Shown: positions 1,905-14,391 of the stretch, one piece after another
Position numbering within the stretch: the first letter of the stretch is position 1
Layout of the letters: each line of letters starts with the position of its first letter
Source: an uncultured Alistipes sp.
GTDB lineage: Bacteria > Bacteroidota > Bacteroidia > Bacteroidales > Rikenellaceae
Direction: 5' to 3'
Assembly: GCA_949288735.1 (NCBI GenBank)
Contig: CASELE010000005.1
Location: forward strand, 1 to 64,000
DNA: 64,000 nucleotides
Made by a program: the position numbers and the translations under genes
The notes under the pieces: generated by a model
Databases searched by the model: none
What the model saw: the letters and a program-made list of their open reading frames with translations, nothing else
What the model was told of the DNA's origin: nothing

Positions 1905-4031
1905 TTATGCTTCGTAGATTTTGAATTCGGTCATGTATTGATACGTTACGTGCCACATGCACTTGTCGGGATAGATCGTAGGCACGGCCAGCAGTTGCAT
2001 GACCCCGCCGTAGGTCTCGATGCGCGGGACGGGTTCGAAGCCGTAAAGGCCCCATTTGAGAGTGGTTACGATTCCCGATTGCGGATCATCGGCTGCGAGA
2101 ATCAGATTGGCGGCACTGCGGGTACGGATGGGCGAATCGTAGAGGTTGAGCACGCTGCCGATGAAGTCGGCCGACGAGGGCAGATTGAGCCAAAATAGGT
2201 ACTCTTCATACCGCTCGCCGAGGATCACGAGATTGAAGTTACGGTCGACGGTGTATTTGCGGGTCGCGGCATCGTAGAGCGTACCCTCTTCGTCGAGTTG
2301 TTTGAAAAGTACCTTCGAGTAGCCGCTGAAGATGCCGCTGCCGACCTCCATGTGCCCATCCTCGTAGATGCGCGTTGTAGCCGTTGCCGCGTTGCGTATG
2401 CCGTCGGCTCCGGCGAAGAGCATCAACTTGCCGTGCTTCCCGGAGGCTGTTCCCTCCATCTCGGCCCCGGCCATGCCGGCCACAACCTTCGAATTGCCGG
2501 CATTCTTCACGCCGACGAATCCCGACAGCACCACGCCGCTCGTTCCGTCTATTTCGGTCGAAATATCGCGGAAGTTTTCCCGCAAATAGGCCAGATCACT
2601 CGCAGCCTCCGTTGCCCGGTTCAACACTCCGGCAATCTCCCGACGGGCGTCATAGTAACGCTCCAGCGCGGCGAAATCTTCGTCGATCGGGATGAACTCG
2701 GGCTCTGTCTGCGTATAGCGTTCTATGGCCGCCACAGCCGCCAGAAAAGCCTCCTCGTAGGGCGTCCACTCGTCGTTCAACAGTCGGACGACACGTCGTT
2801 GCCCGTTTGCGGTGAGCACCTTGCCATTAACAAAGCGATAGCCCGTCGTGCTGATATGCATGAGCGCCTCGGCACGGAGTTGTTCATATTCGTTACGGAT
2901 ATCCTGCCCGCGTTCGCGCAGAAACGATTTCTCGACGGGCGAAACGCAGGCATCGGAGTTGATCTGCCGCAGCACCTCCTGCGTCTCCGAGATGCTTTGC
3001 AGCAACGCATCGAAGTCGGTACCGCTGCCGGGCTTTGCCGGGTCGATGCGTCCGAGACGCAATACACCATCGCGGAACGAAACCCCGTAGCCGGTCGTGC
3101 GGTTGAAGAGCTGCATCTCGCCCGTGGCGGAATCGAACCACGAGTCGCCCGTGCGGTCGGATAGAAAACCAGTGAGATAGATATTTTTCAGATAGGCCGA
3201 ATAGCCGGTCATGTCGAGTCCGTGCGCCGCAAGGTTCGAGAGGTCGCCGAACTGTGCGGCAATGTTCTCCGTGCGAATCTTCCAATCGTTCATACCGACC
3301 AGAAAGCGCATGTAGGTGCGGGTCTCATAGCGGGAGGTCTGACGTTCCGAATCGGAGGTATTGCCGAATGCCACGAAGTGCATCGCCACCTGCGGATGGA
3401 CGGGATAACCGTCGCGTAACTCATAGCGCCATTCGCTGTAATTTATCGGGTCGAGGCACTCCACAAGACGGAAGTAGCAGGTTGTGAAGCCGGCATAGGT
3501 ACGATTGCCGAACGAGTCGTCCGAATCGACAGTGTTATCTGTTATATTGTCTGTTGCAGCATTCAGAAAGATACCCATGCAGAGGTCGTTTTCGCGGAGC
3601 GTGCCGACTTCGCCCTCCTCCAGCTTGACGGTCAGCGTGCAGACCTCCCCGGCAACCGCTGCGACAATGCCGCATCCCGGAGCCGACCACTTGTCGCCGA
3701 CGAGCGTCTCGACCCGGTTGTAACGGTATTCGGGAACCTCAAGAAATTCTTCCAGATGCAGCCGTCGCAGATAGGTGTCGCCCATGACGGAGAGATTACC
3801 CGCGATTGCGCCGCCCTTTTTGTCCAGCTTTTTCTCCAGTTCGCCGGTCAGGCCCGACACATCGGCAAGGGCATGAATATGCTGCTTGGGAGCCATTACG
3901 CCCTTGATCTCCTTGCCCGAGACCTTCATCGACGCCTCGGCCGACGGCACATCGACGATGAACTCGAACTTGTCGAATTCATCCAACTGCCCCGCGGCAC
4001 TCGTCAAATCTTTGATGCGGATGTCGTCCAT
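1905..4031 (-). CDS. Phage tail fibre / baseplate structural protein, 708 aa
   Basis: A large virion-type protein. The start MDDIRIKDLTSAAGQLDEFD is preferred over an ATG 8 codons upstream because it matches the usual opening of these fibres (xIxIKDL...). Residues 50-75 carry a KQHIHALADVSGL collar-like motif followed by a short coiled coil (LTGELEKKLDKK), the typical join between the attachment domain and the shaft. The middle holds polar beta-rich sequence, and residues 340-520 are predicted helical (many Glu/Arg heptads). The C-terminal 200 residues are again beta-rich. There is no signal peptide. It lies directly upstream of two small tip genes in the tail module. The host receptor cannot be told from the sequence. 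Confidence 0.65.
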   Translation of the reverse strand: MDDIRIKDLTSAAGQLDEFDKFEFIVDVPSAEASMKVSGKEIKGVMAPKQHIHALADVSGLTGELEKKLDKKGGAIAGNLSVMGDTYLRRLHLEEFLEVPEYRYNRVETLVGDKWSAPGCGIVAAVAGEVCTLTVKLEEGEVGTLRENDLCMGIFLNAATDNITDNTVDSDDSFGNRTYAGFTTCYFRLVECLDPINYSEWRYELRDGYPVHPQVAMHFVAFGNTSDSERQTSRYETRTYMRFLVGMNDWKIRTENIAAQFGDLSNLAAHGLDMTGYSAYLKNIYLTGFLSDRTGDSWFDSATGEMQLFNRTTGYGVSFRDGVLRLGRIDPAKPGSGTDFDALLQSISETQEVLRQINSDACVSPVEKSFLRERGQDIRNEYEQLRAEALMHISTTGYRFVNGKVLTANGQRRVVRLLNDEWTPYEEAFLAAVAAIERYTQTEPEFIPIDEDFAALERYYDARREIAGVLNRATEAASDLAYLRENFRDISTEIDGTSGVVLSGFVGVKNAGNSKVVAGMAGAEMEGTASGKHGKLMLFAGADGIRNAATATTRIYEDGHMEVGSGIFSGYSKVLFKQLDEEGTLYDAATRKYTVDRNFNLVILGERYEEYLFWLNLPSSADFIGSVLNLYDSPIRTRSAANLILAADDPQSGIVTTLKWGLYGFEPVPRIETYGGVMQLLAVPTIYPDKCMWHVTYQYMTEFKIYEA

Positions 4032-4108
4032 ATAGGGTGAATATATAAATGCCAATATAATTTATATGAAAACATTGTCCTATATTTTGAAACCTTAATA
4101 TTATTTCC

Positions 4109-4116
4109 TATATTTG
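4109..4116 (+). promoter_or_regulatory. Bacteroidota -7 box for the opposite-strand moron gene
   Basis: TATATTTG matches the Bacteroidota -7 consensus TAnnTTTG and lies 15 bases before the ATG at 4132. An in-frame TTG at 4114 falls inside the box, so it cannot be the start codon. Confidence 0.55.
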
Positions 4117-4131
4117 AAAAAAGCGCCCATT

Positions 4132-4611
4132 ATGAAATATTTTATCACTGTAATATTCCTCATGTTAGGAATATCATCTCAAGCCCAAACCTATAAATTA
4201 TACCAAACGGACAATATTCATAATCAATTACGATTGAATACAAAAACAGGTGAGGTATATCAAATTCAAGATGACGGACAAAAATTTGTCATTAACTATG
4301 CTGTAACTCCGGACAATGAATCCGCCAATAGATACATGCTTTATAAGACTCGCAATATATGGACATTTATTCTCCTTGACAGATGGACCGGGAAACTATG
4401 GCAATGTCAATTTAGTGTTGAAGGAGAAGAATATATGATTACTATCCCTATCAATACAACAGCTCTTAGTTATTCTGCAAAGCCTGTATTTAACATTGAA
4501 CCAATGACAAGCATGTTCCAATTTTATCTTATAAATGAGGAGAATGGGGAGATGTGGAAGTTTCAATGGAGTACAAAAGGTGATGATTACAGGTGGATAG
4601 AAAAAGTATAA
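4132..4611 (+). CDS. Secreted three-repeat protein, prophage moron, 159 aa
   Basis: The gene lies on the opposite strand to its phage neighbours, between fibre and tape-measure genes, and is strikingly AT-rich (about one third G+C by eye) in GC-rich surroundings. MKYFITVIFLMLGISSQAQ is a Sec signal peptide with a likely AQ/T cleavage. The mature part holds three imperfect repeats of about 38 residues. Each has the form Y-x-L-Y-x-T-x-N-I, a polar loop, then L-D-x-x-T-G-x-x-W-Q-x-Q (for example LLDRWTGKLWQCQFS, with weaker versions LNTKTGEVYQIQ and INEENGEMWKFQW). Its own promoter box sits just upstream. Gene position, base composition and independent promoter are the signs of a moron, a cargo gene expressed from a prophage. 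The function is unknown; an envelope or surface role is inferred from the signal peptide. Confidence 0.7.
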   Translation: MKYFITVIFLMLGISSQAQTYKLYQTDNIHNQLRLNTKTGEVYQIQDDGQKFVINYAVTPDNESANRYMLYKTRNIWTFILLDRWTGKLWQCQFSVEGEEYMITIPINTTALSYSAKPVFNIEPMTSMFQFYLINEENGEMWKFQWSTKGDDYRWIEKV

Positions 4612-4616
4612 TGCCT

Positions 4617-6911
4617 TTACCCACCCAACACCTCTGACTTGAAGTTCTCCTTGCCGAGAACATAGACCAGATCACGACCCTTGGCAGTTAGTTGACCGCC
4701 AAGGGTTATTTGTATCTGTTGCGTGGCTCCTGCTGTTGGGAGCATTGACTGCAATCTCGACAGAGGGGCGATGACCTCGGGGTCGGTGCGGGCATTGAGG
4801 TTATCGCCGACCATGGCGTAAGTAGGTCCGTAGGCCAGACCTCCGTTCGCAAGTGCCGGGACGCTGTCGCCGGCGTTCTTGTTGATGAGTGCCGTCATCA
4901 CGGCTGCGGCCGCCACCATCGCCGCACCGATGGCGATTGCCGCCCACGGATTCCACAGCACCGACCGCAACGCCGACTTGAAGGCCAGAATCATCACACC
5001 GAACTCGATGAGCTGCGTGCCGATGTTCTTCAGGAAGGATGCGAACTGCGTCAGAATCGCCTTCATCAACCCGCCGAATCCAAGATCCCCGGTGATAACC
5101 TGCCCGATGGCTTCGGCTGCTGCCACGATGCTGTCGGCCATGAACTTCGAGACCTGCTGGTCGAAGCGCTGCATCACCTCGGCGATGGCACCATGAACAT
5201 GTTCGAGTGCCGCGGAGAACGACCATCCCCGGGCCGTCAGCGCCGTGGTGTAGTTGTCGACCATTGCCACCGTATCGAGAAGATTCTGACCGAGATGGCT
5301 CTCCGTATCGTCGGCCCACCCGTAAAGACCTTCGCGGACCGAAGCGAACAGGAGCTGCATCTGCCGTGACCAGTCGCTCGCTACGGGTGCCAGATCGGCC
5401 ATCTTCAATTCAGGTGCGGGCAATTCGAGTTCCACACCTTCGGGGAGCAGCGGCCCGAAGGTCGGCCGGGCCAGTTGCCCGGGTGTAAGGTTTTGGATTC
5501 GCTGCAACTCTTCGCGCAGACGGGCAATCTCGGCATTTGCCGCGGCAGTATCCTCGAGCGTCGATTCGGGCAGAAGTTTGCGCTTTTCAAGGCCCTCTAT
5601 CTGCTTCTGCAGTCGTCCGATGATGCCCGTCGTCCGTTCCGTACCGTCTGCTGCCGCATTCATCGAGGCCATCAGTTCCTCGGTCTGTTGCCGGGCCTGC
5701 TCCGTGATGCGGTCCATCTCTGCCTGCGCATCGGCCGCCTTCTTCTCCGCTTCGCGCTTCTTCTCGATGGCGGCCGTCAGCAATTCATACTCCCTGCGCA
5801 ATGGAGCCAGCTGCGACTCGTCGGGAACTTTCTGGATGGTAAATCCAGCCACCAGACCGCCGAAGTTGGGCACAAGCCGCGTGCGGGTCGTTTCGTCGAT
5901 GACGGCTTTCTGCCGGGTAAGGTTGTCGCGGAGTTTGCGTTCGAGTTCTTCGAGCGAGTCGCTCTCGGCCATCTCGTCGATCATCTTCTGCTTCTCGATA
6001 CGGGCATATGCAAAGGCCGCACCCATAGCGACAATCGCCGCAACAACGAGTCCAACGGGTGAAAGCAGGGCGGTCAGTCCGGCCGAAAGCATCGGCAGCA
6101 CCTTGATAACGGCTCCGACTCCGAGCGACAGCGGTCCAATGGCTGCTGCCAGTCCCGCCACGACGACCAGCACCTGCTTCATGGCGGGCGAGAGCGGCTG
6201 CAGCATCTGCACGACGACGGTCAGCGCCCGGGTTACCTTCGTGGCAAAGGGCATCATCGCGGCGCCGATCTGTTCGAGAAAATCGCCCCAGGCGTTGTTC
6301 AACTGACGCAAGGGTCCGAGCGCCGTCTGCGCGGCACTTTCGGCGAATCCTTTATAGTTCTCGAGGATGAAGTCCACGGCCTCGCCGTTCTTCAGTTGCT
6401 CGACGGTCAGTTCCTTCAGTTTCGGGATGCTTTCACCCAGTTCGCCGGTCAGACCGCCGAAGGTCTTGGCGAGATTCTTCACGGCGCTGTCGAGCGTCAT
6501 TCCCGTAGCGGCGGACAACTGCGCCGAGGCTTCGATCACCCGGCCGATCTGCTCCTCGGTCATTCCCAGCGAAGCCAGATAGGCCTGCTGTCCGATGACC
6601 ACCTCGTCGCCCAGTACGGAGCGCGACTGCAACTCGGCCGCCTGCGCGATAAGCCGTTGCTGGATGTCCGTGCGCCCCTTGAGTGCCGTGAGCAGACGCT
6701 GCTCGGCCTGCTGCTGCGTATCGGCATTCTTCAATGCCACGGCCCCGAGTGCGGCAAGCGGTGCCGTGAGTTTCACCGATAGGGACTTGCCGAGCGAGGT
6801 CAGCCGCTTTTCGAGCGAGCCGAGGTTGCGCTCGACCTGGTGCGCCTTCTGCTGAAACTCGTAGGAGTCGGCTCCGATCTTGATAAGGAGGTCGGCGATT
6901 CTTCGGGACAT
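4617..6911 (-). CDS. Phage tail tape measure protein, 764 aa
   Basis: The start MSRRIADLLIKIGADSYEFQ (6911) is chosen because it follows the stop of the upstream gene by 7 bases and matches the usual N-terminus of tape-measure proteins; an in-frame ATG 17 codons earlier overlaps that gene. Residues 15-60 form a coiled coil. Residues 95-220 resemble the TP901-type tape-measure core (ATGMTLDSAVKNLAKTFGGL). Two hydrophobic stretches follow, near residues 230-300 and 620-680, the kind that help the tail tip cross membranes. A heptad-rich helical region lies near 300-470. In siphoviruses and myoviruses this protein sets tail length and chaperones tube assembly. The short length suggests a short tail tube. 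It appears intact although the neighbouring baseplate gene is broken. Confidence 0.8.
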   Translation of the reverse strand: MSRRIADLLIKIGADSYEFQQKAHQVERNLGSLEKRLTSLGKSLSVKLTAPLAALGAVALKNADTQQQAEQRLLTALKGRTDIQQRLIAQAAELQSRSVLGDEVVIGQQAYLASLGMTEEQIGRVIEASAQLSAATGMTLDSAVKNLAKTFGGLTGELGESIPKLKELTVEQLKNGEAVDFILENYKGFAESAAQTALGPLRQLNNAWGDFLEQIGAAMMPFATKVTRALTVVVQMLQPLSPAMKQVLVVVAGLAAAIGPLSLGVGAVIKVLPMLSAGLTALLSPVGLVVAAIVAMGAAFAYARIEKQKMIDEMAESDSLEELERKLRDNLTRQKAVIDETTRTRLVPNFGGLVAGFTIQKVPDESQLAPLRREYELLTAAIEKKREAEKKAADAQAEMDRITEQARQQTEELMASMNAAADGTERTTGIIGRLQKQIEGLEKRKLLPESTLEDTAAANAEIARLREELQRIQNLTPGQLARPTFGPLLPEGVELELPAPELKMADLAPVASDWSRQMQLLFASVREGLYGWADDTESHLGQNLLDTVAMVDNYTTALTARGWSFSAALEHVHGAIAEVMQRFDQQVSKFMADSIVAAAEAIGQVITGDLGFGGLMKAILTQFASFLKNIGTQLIEFGVMILAFKSALRSVLWNPWAAIAIGAAMVAAAAVMTALINKNAGDSVPALANGGLAYGPTYAMVGDNLNARTDPEVIAPLSRLQSMLPTAGATQQIQITLGGQLTAKGRDLVYVLGKENFKSEVLGG

Positions 6912-6918
6912 GGTGAGT

Positions 6919-7326
6919 CTATGGTTTGTGTTGAATGAAGAGTGTCCATCCGGCTTCGACATCGGACATCACGGCTTCGCGGCCGTTCTCCATGCGGCTC
7001 ATCGCCGCCACAACGGCGAGCATGGTCGCCCGGTCGTGCGTGTCGAGCGGCTCGTCCGCATCGACGCCGGACCACATGGCGACGCAGCGGATGTAGTTTT
7101 CGGTATGATTCTCCACCGGCGGAGCGTAGCGTGCGATCATCTGACGCAGGGTGCCATATCCCCGGCGACGGTAGGAGTCCAGCAGCACGAACATCGCACG
7201 GTAACCCCACGCCATCGTCTCGAACTGTTTGAAGGCTGCGTCGCGCGAAGGTGTCACCTCGCCCAGATAGCGGGTCTTCGAGCGGCGGATATTGCCCGGA
7301 TTGCGGTTGCGTAGTCCTCGTGTCAT
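6919..7326 (-). CDS. Structural protein P5 / lysozyme-like lytic enzyme, 135 aa
   Basis: The N-terminus RGLRNRNPGNIRRSKTRYLG carries the RNxNPGNIR signature of a small family annotated in Bacteroides genomes as structural protein P5. The rest, FKQFETMAWGYRAMFVLLDSY and RMIARYAPPVENHTENYI, fits the alpha-helical lysozyme-like fold of that family. By analogy it would cleave peptidoglycan during entry or release; the catalytic residue is not certain from sequence alone. It sits immediately downstream (2 bases) of a membrane-anchored coiled-coil gene and upstream of the tape measure, so it may be either a tail-associated muralytic enzyme or, with its neighbour, a lysis pair. Confidence 0.7.
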   Translation of the reverse strand: MTRGLRNRNPGNIRRSKTRYLGEVTPSRDAAFKQFETMAWGYRAMFVLLDSYRRRGYGTLRQMIARYAPPVENHTENYIRCVAMWSGVDADEPLDTHDRATMLAVVAAMSRMENGREAVMSDVEAGWTLFIQHKP

Positions 7327-12666: not shown

Positions 12667-12699
12667 ACAGCCGTGTAACCTCTCGGGTTACACGGCTGT
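12667..12699 (+). terminator. Terminator hairpin of the flavoprotein operon, inside the integrase 3' end
   Basis: A perfect 14-base stem (ACAGCCGTGTAACC at 12667-12680 with its complement at 12686-12699) and a 5-base loop, followed by TGTTT. The integrase stop codon (12688-12690) lies inside the right arm, so the hairpin serves two convergent units. Its arms contain GGTTACACG, which recurs upstream of the integrase. Confidence 0.65.
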
Positions 12700-14010
12700 T
12701 GTTTCGGACTGTCGAATAATCGAACGGGCGTTCAGCTTACGGGCCAGGGCCTCCATGTCGTTGTTGATCTTCGTGTCGATCACGCGGGCATAGATCTGCG
12801 TTGTCTGGATGTTCGTGTGGCCGAGCATCTTCGAAACCGTCTCGATGGGGACGCCGTTGGCCAGCGTCACCGTCGTGGCGAACGTGTGGCGGGCCATGTG
12901 GAATGTCAGATCCTTGTCGATACCGCAGAGGTCGGCAATCTCCTTCAGGTAGGAGTTCACCTTTTGATTCGACGGTACGGGGAAGAGCAGACGGCTCTTG
13001 CCCCTGACCGAACCCTTGTACCTTTCGATAAGCCGCAGCGGCGTCTCCAACAGTCGTACGTGTACCGGAATATTCGTTTTCTGCCGTTTGGTGTCGATCC
13101 ACAGGTTGCCGTCGGGCCAGCGCTGAAGCATATCGGAGGTGAGATTCTTCAGGTCGATGTAGGCCAGTCCGGTGTAGCAACTGAAGAGGAACAGGTCGCG
13201 GATGACCTCCAGACGTCGGGTAGTGAAAACCTTGCTCTCGAGACGACTCAACTCGGCATCGGTCAGATAGCCGCGGTCGACCTTCTCGAAGTGAATCTTG
13301 TAACCGGCCAGCGGGTCGTTCTTCGACCAGCCGTTCAGATGCCCGACCCGCAGCATGGTCTTCAACTGCCGCATCAGTTTCATCGTCGAGTTGTTGGTCA
13401 ACTGATAGGTGATGCGCAGCCAGCGGTCGAATTCTGCGGCAAAACGGGGCTGAATCTCCTTGACCGGAATGTCCGGCATGCGGTAGCGGTTGCGCATGAA
13501 CTCCTCGAGGCGGTTGCGCGTAAGCAGATAGCGCAGGTAGGTTTCGCGACAACACTGTTTGGTGCGCAGCAGGTCGGTATAATCCTCGATGAAGCGGTCA
13601 CAGACGCCCAGAAGTGTAGAGGTGCTCTGGTCGAGCCCGGTAATGGCGTTTTTGAGCATCGCGGCCGTGATGGTCTCCTCTCCGCGCAGCATCTGGTCGT
13701 AGCGGCGTCGTATCAGCACACGCAGTTCATCGAGCGCATCGTTGATCTGTTTCTCCTCGCGGCTCTTGCCCGCGGTGCGGGAATCCTTCGGCAGCCAGCG
13801 GTCGGGGTGAATGTACATCCGCGTGGCAAAGTGCACCATTTCGTGATTGACCGTGATGCGAGCCACGATGGGAGCCGTGCCATCCTCACGGGCCTTGCCC
13901 TTCTGGAGCACGAAGATGATGGCGAAAGTGCTCTTGCGTGTAGCGGCTGCCTCTTTTTTCGGTCGTGCGGCGACGCTCTTCGGCCGCACCTTTTTCGTTG
14001 TCTTTTCCAT
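12688..14010 (-). CDS. Tyrosine recombinase (Bacteroides/IntDOT-type integrase), 440 aa
   Basis: The basic N-terminus and an Arm-like domain (FAIIFVLQKGKAREDGTAPI, RITVNHEMVHFATRMYIHPD) are followed by a SAM-like core-binding domain (residues 125-225) and a catalytic domain. His371, Arg374 (HMARHTF), His398 (LGHTNIQTTQIYARV) and the nucleophile Tyr407 are in place. The usual Arg I position in SCYTGLAYIDL is Ala283; loss of this arginine is known in CTnDOT-type integrases and does not mean the enzyme is dead. It would integrate and excise the accessory block. The 5' end faces tRNA-Asp about 300 bases away, with phased GGTTAC repeats between, so tRNA-Asp is the likely attachment site. The gene looks intact. 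Confidence 0.9.
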   Translation of the reverse strand: MEKTTKKVRPKSVAARPKKEAAATRKSTFAIIFVLQKGKAREDGTAPIVARITVNHEMVHFATRMYIHPDRWLPKDSRTAGKSREEKQINDALDELRVLIRRRYDQMLRGEETITAAMLKNAITGLDQSTSTLLGVCDRFIEDYTDLLRTKQCCRETYLRYLLTRNRLEEFMRNRYRMPDIPVKEIQPRFAAEFDRWLRITYQLTNNSTMKLMRQLKTMLRVGHLNGWSKNDPLAGYKIHFEKVDRGYLTDAELSRLESKVFTTRRLEVIRDLFLFSCYTGLAYIDLKNLTSDMLQRWPDGNLWIDTKRQKTNIPVHVRLLETPLRLIERYKGSVRGKSRLLFPVPSNQKVNSYLKEIADLCGIDKDLTFHMARHTFATTVTLANGVPIETVSKMLGHTNIQTTQIYARVIDTKINNDMEALARKLNARSIIRQSETTAV

Positions 14011-14308: not shown

Positions 14309-14317
14309 CTCGTTCTG

Positions 14318-14391
14318 CGGTGCGTAGGGGACTCGAACCCCTGACCCCGTGCGTGACAGGCACGTATTCTAACCAGCTGAACTAACGCACC
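14318..14391 (-). tRNA. tRNA-Asp (GTC)
   Basis: On the minus strand a complete 74-base cloverleaf: acceptor GGTGCGT pairs with ACGCACC, discriminator G, anticodon stem CGTGC/GCACG with loop CTGTCAC (anticodon GTC), and T arm AGGGG-TTCGAGT-CCCCT. CCA is not encoded. Its 3' end faces the integrase gene, the usual geometry for an integration target. A -7 box lies 19 bases upstream and a hairpin terminator just downstream. Confidence 0.95.

Follow-up and report, generated by a model that had tools for sequence, protein, structure and literature searches.

A candidate anti-phage moron with a predicted partial beta-propeller fold in a cargo slot of an Alistipes prophage

Morons and prophage-encoded defence are known as such; the function of most morons is not. 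Ltp, which the Streptococcus phage TP-J34 encodes as a prophage, is an exported lipoprotein and prevents DNA injection. It contains internal repeats, is transcribed in the prophage state and belongs to the lysogeny module of Gram-positive phages (PMC3952083). Judging from its title, a paper cited in this context (Bebeacua 2013) identifies the tape measure as the target of Ltp. Tha of Staphylococcus phages is the product of a prophage accessory gene and protects the lysogen from other phages. This RNase has a HEPN domain; tail proteins switch it on, and an antisense gene that overlaps its own encodes its inhibitor (PMC11087260). Here, we describe a gene of an uncultured Alistipes sp. that may act to a similar end with a different protein.

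A cargo slot between the tape-measure and fibre genes

The window, i.e. the whole 64-kb stretch analysed, lay at the start of a contig of 89 kb in a genome of 1.66 Mb; the relatives found pointed to the Bacteroidota. Its prophage part ran from position 1 to about 14 kb and included genes for a tape measure and an integrase, together with tail and endolysin-like genes. The region contained the following features:

1905–4031, minus strand: conserved tail or fibre-like gene, first flank of the slot; weak PHROG matches, one of them to a tail-fibre PHROG (E = 6e-4)
4026–4623: cargo slot, where the ~95% identical phage L025 has a different gene and no shared sequence
4086–4116, plus strand: putative Bacteroides-type promoter, TTTG-N19-TATATTTG, an exact match to the consensus
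4132–4611, plus strand: gene of the predicted exported three-blade protein; intact ORF of 159 codons (159 aa) with an ATG start
4617–6962, minus strand: tape-measure gene, second flank of the slot, matching PHROG tape-measure families
12688–14010, minus strand: prophage integrase, adjoining tRNA-Asp at 14317–14391

The initial annotation had described 4132–4611 as an AT-rich moron on the opposite strand, between fibre and tape measure and with a promoter and signal peptide of its own. The analysis confirmed this observation, with tape-measure PHROG matches on one side and the weak matches, one of them to a tail fibre, on the other. Strand and composition were as described: the gene ran against its neighbours, and its GC content of 0.34 was the lowest among the selected ORFs of the window (next lowest 0.51), compared with 0.57 and 0.61 for the flanking genes. 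It ended 5 bp from the stop of the convergent tape-measure gene, and a simple scan found no terminator for it. Near the contig end, a minus-strand ORF (116–547) had a lipoprotein-like N-terminus (MKKIFFLAAMLSFLAIYSC) and no PHROG match.

The Bacteroides-type promoter consensus is TTTG-N19-TAnnTTTG. Its match at 4086–4116 ended 15 bp from the ATG. There were three matches in the 64-kb window versus 0.18 expected from shuffling, and the chance of a match within the local 100 nt was approximately 0.6% under a first-order Markov model. The match agrees with the annotated promoter and suggests that the gene is transcribed independently of the late genes.

The moron assignment was supported by related phages, in which the flanking genes are adjacent or enclose other genes. 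In the IMG/VR contig L025, the slot flanks were ~95% identical to the window at the DNA level and a different gene lay inside. A comparison of tape-measure relatives with a fibre gene next door gave nine distinct occupied slots, the window included, and several empty ones. The empty junctions measured 61 bp in L098, 5 bp in L109 and a few bp in L030 and L034; other cargo occupied the same junction in L025, L097 and further contigs. Four of the eight other occupied slots held known defence or toxin-antitoxin genes: an AbiGi-like gene (Pfam 7e-6, PADLOC 1.6e-6), a DUF262 gene (PADLOC NsnA 1e-56, PD-T4-2_A 2e-53) paired with HEPN_MAE_28990 (8e-26), a putative AbiC (putAbiC, 4e-14) and a HigBA pair of a HigB-like protein and an HTH antitoxin (6e-13 and 2e-13). 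The remaining four encoded a small membrane protein, a 485-aa protein, a small GTPase-like protein and an unknown. The 485-aa protein (L113, 4882–6599) had no family match and carried, towards its C-terminus, a HEPN-like RNKFLH motif. Cargo was oriented opposite to the tail genes in all nine occupied slots, and TAnnTTTG occurred within the first 100 nt at the cargo-start side in seven of them. No metabolic genes were seen among the occupied slots compared. The junction is thus a cargo slot that has repeatedly taken defence or toxin-antitoxin genes. As to an integron-cassette origin of the insert, no attC-like boundary motif was seen: the classical core motif was absent from 4026–4623, a weak test because the motif was also absent from the cassette-like array on contig L001.

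Leader, repeats and predicted fold

The encoded protein was divided as follows:

4132–4188, plus strand: putative signal peptide MKYFITVIFLMLGISSQAQ, SPI-like, without a lipobox and ending in AQ, as read by eye
4189–4323, plus strand: predicted blade 1, residues ~20–64 (strands 21–25, 31–36, 42–46 and 51–55)
4324–4467, plus strand: predicted blade 2, residues ~65–112 (strands 68–72, 78–83, 89–93 and 103–108)
4468–4608, plus strand: predicted blade 3, an end blade with the conserved WSTKGDDYRWIEK, residues ~113–159 (strands 120–127, 130–135, 141–145 and 154–158)

Inspection of the leader agreed with the clean signal peptide annotated initially, and similar hydrophobic N-terminal leaders occurred in 30 of the 31 members of the family alignment described below, with a lipobox in several. 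The three repeats said to fill the mature protein were also recovered. Repeat 2 resembled repeats 1 and 3 (scores of 56 and 58) at a level reached by none of 1000 shuffles; the similarity of repeats 1 and 3 was weak (27 of 1000 shuffles reached its score), and the repeats were obvious in relatives. The proposed motif YxLYxTxNI...LDxxTGxxWQxQ fitted blade 2 best, with blades 1 and 3 as divergent versions.

The protein was modelled with AlphaFold and an alignment of ten related sequences. The best model (pLDDT 82.9, pTM 0.79) contained 12 strands that fell into three groups of four. The pLDDT of the five models ranged from 44 to 83; since the other four scored 44–79, we regard the model as good, not overwhelming. 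The best VIA-align match was 2p4o, a lactonase-like protein (Z 11.1, rmsd 3.6, 126 aligned residues), with many near-ties. Foldseek placed the model onto parts of beta-propellers (best E 0.005), and identity to the propeller matches was about 3–12%. The model aligned onto part of larger propeller rings, and modelling of a four-blade relative gave an arc of the same type (Foldseek E values as low as 9e-5). The strand sets and the propeller matches indicate that an open arc of three blades, half a beta-propeller, is the most likely form of the window protein. The earlier propeller suggestion was right about the blades, which are consecutive, four-stranded and antiparallel in the model, but a full propeller closes into a ring with four to twelve blades per chain and the model has three. 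A beta-trefoil, also 3 × 4 strands, was rejected: the fold matches were propellers, and relatives with two and four repeats argue against it. Self-association of the arc into a ring is plausible by analogy, since engineered three-blade WD40 fragments form trimeric rings (PMC6805158).

A mobile family with two, three or four blades

The window protein had no Pfam match and no NCBIfam match near a cut-off, and none of the PADLOC 2.0.0 defence models matched it or the four-blade proteins. Matches to PHROG 30813 (E 0.052) and to the AlgG and methylamine-dehydrogenase NCBIfam models (far below their cut-offs) were too weak to use, and a sequence profile search of the PDB gave nothing significant. 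The literature search found no paper describing this family or this slot. Judged from these libraries and the literature, the family is undescribed, in line with the initial annotation, which recognised no named domain for the repeat. The family alignment comprised 31 members with two, three or four blades. The viral contigs yielded no relative with the window protein as a single query; with an alignment as the query, further viral contigs, of a Bacteroidota type, proved to carry homologues. Thus, neither of the two outcomes set beforehand as refuting, a match to a characterised family and the absence of homologues from other Bacteroidota prophages, occurred.

When three- and four-blade members were compared, the first and last blades matched the window protein at 73–86% and the middle at 55–61%. 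The extra blade of the four-blade form was of the middle type, with 25 of 50 residues identical to the second blade versus 8 and 11 to the first and last. The family appears to conserve its end blades and to vary the number of middle blades. From its sequences, it can be described as an unnamed Bacteroidota family nearly always provided with a predicted export leader. Of 200 genomes from the window's taxonomic family, 27 had a member, as did 10 of 395 genomes drawn across the phylum; each figure includes the genome of the window. The family is mobile: carriers included viral contigs and phages, conjugative-type elements, plasmids, a cassette-like array and chromosomes. Many relatives were plain, single, low-GC chromosomal genes.

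Some neighbourhoods were rich in defence genes; they were hand-picked as interesting and serve as illustrations, not statistics. In L025, a second variable place after an LRR tail gene held a two-blade member, with a candidate PDC-S11 defence gene two genes on. The second slot of L103 (about 3835–6423) encoded a two-blade relative of 170 aa, a 254-aa protein and a PDC-S11 candidate; a PADLOC match to PDC-S11 near a two-blade member reached 5e-141. A 100% identical 170-aa protein was found at a contig start in another genome (L084, 195–707; G491). On the mobile element L104, a member lay among PDC-S26, an MmeI-type restriction enzyme and an FRG-domain (PDC-S15) gene. Five related conjugative-type elements (L022, L067, L068, L069 and L100) had a four-blade gene immediately upstream of the gene for a large UvrD-like helicase; this helicase carries a membrane segment at its N-terminus and resembles the GajB and RTasHel profiles.

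In three genomes (L070, L088 and L093), members of the 170-aa type followed immediately downstream of a similar HTH/WYL-type regulator, with a preceding RhuM (PDC-S05) gene in L088. The cassette-like array, in a Croceivirga genome bin, included a member with 68% identity. In this array (L001, 1500–9600), small genes on the same strand, glyoxalase-, GNAT- and beta-lactamase-like by eye, alternated with repeats that had inverted ends specific to each cassette (GTTGTGCGC ... GCGCACAAC) and a CTATAATTCA block in common. The classical RYYYAAC/GTTRRRY pair (attC core) was not matched, and the array only looks like a series of gene cassettes.

In an unbiased sample of chromosomal neighbours (134 proteins versus 125 control proteins), 141 PADLOC families were matched versus four in the control, most of them by a few proteins, namely UvrD-like helicases, WYL regulators and one RhuM. 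Because the raw family counts were inflated in this way, defence enrichment near chromosomal relatives is not established.

Proposed function and comparison with known systems

We tentatively propose, at a little under an even chance, that 4132–4611 is a prophage moron that acts in the envelope of the lysogen against superinfecting phages. Its placement in a dedicated cargo slot, its promoter and its orientation all suggest reading in the lysogen, from a promoter of host type that does not depend on the silent tail genes. The company in the slot suggests a role in defence or element stability, and the leader suggests an envelope location. The predicted export product would fold into the open three-blade arc, and copies of it would probably pair to form a ring. 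Once in the envelope, the product may bind a component of the tail or injection machinery of an arriving phage, or a surface glycan or protein used by phages, which would lower infection by competing phages. Together, the expected reading in the lysogen, the slot company and the leader point to superinfection exclusion, an Ltp-like effect with another fold. It is the defence genes of related phages at the same spot that make the window protein a candidate envelope-level shield. This argument is one of guilt by association over nine occupied slots, and the known defence occupants look cytoplasmic, so they give no pointer to an envelope mechanism. A wider role of the exported partial propellers as an anti-phage envelope shield of mobile elements throughout the Bacteroidota, perhaps via self-associated rings, is a possibility that we rate as rather unlikely.

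The many chromosomal relatives, together with a neighbour test in which enrichment was not established, make a host-fitness role a real alternative, although a doubtful one. The half-propeller might bind glycans, nutrients or host molecules, or buffer envelope stress, unrelated to phages. Such a role would suit the wide spread of single low-GC chromosomal members in both genome samples, the members on conjugative-type elements and in an array with metabolic-type genes, and the likeness to Bacteroides lactonase-like and nutrient-binding propellers, which is one of shared fold only. The slot argues the other way, as it repeatedly has defence or toxin-antitoxin genes and metabolic genes were not seen there.

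The helicase-linked four-blade genes would fit a multi-component defence in which the blades sense phage damage to the envelope and work with a partner. The resemblance of this helicase to GajB and RTasHel is in its favour, but GajB profiles are matched non-specifically by UvrD helicases, the helicase neighbour was seen in only one kind of element and the window gene has no adjoining partner; we consider this improbable for the window protein. Even less probable is a secreted antibacterial or signalling protein aimed at other bacteria. The leader and the many types of carrier are compatible with it, whereas this small blade protein has neither an adjoining immunity gene nor a toxin-like domain. 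Least of all do we expect a structural or lysis-related phage protein. The gene sits amid tail genes, and phage structural proteins include beta-propellers, but it lies on the opposite strand and has a predicted signal peptide and a putative promoter of its own. Otherwise near-identical phages lack it and have unrelated genes or nothing instead, and homologues occur on non-phage elements.

The superinfection-exclusion proposal provides a compact, testable candidate and a precise tape-measure/fibre cargo slot in a phage group of these bacteria. The unnamed occupants (the 485-aa protein, the small GTPase-like protein and the small membrane protein) become defence candidates too, since they are located in the same slot as known defence genes. 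The other occupants (AbiGi-like, DUF262 with HEPN, putAbiC and HigBA) share position and orientation with the window gene, are AT-rich and mostly have a promoter-like element. Their proteins are unrelated to the window protein and apparently cytoplasmic or membrane-anchored rather than exported blades. With beta-propellers such as the lactonase-like 2p4o and Hsv2 (4av8), the predicted window protein has four-stranded blades in an arc in common, but it has three blades, is open and shares about 3–12% identity. The engineered three-blade WD40 trimers (PMC6805158) are an analogy, not a relative. Like Tha, the window protein would be the product of a prophage accessory gene that protects the lysogen; the HEPN RNase and the overlapping antisense inhibitor of Tha were not seen for the window gene. 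The lipobox cysteine of the Ltp family is missing from the window protein, which is also set apart from Ltp, as described, by its predicted all-beta fold and by a gene between tail genes. With Ltp it shares its nature as a prophage-encoded, predicted exported envelope protein with internal repeats; transcription in the lysogen is likewise expected, and the effect proposed for it is the same.
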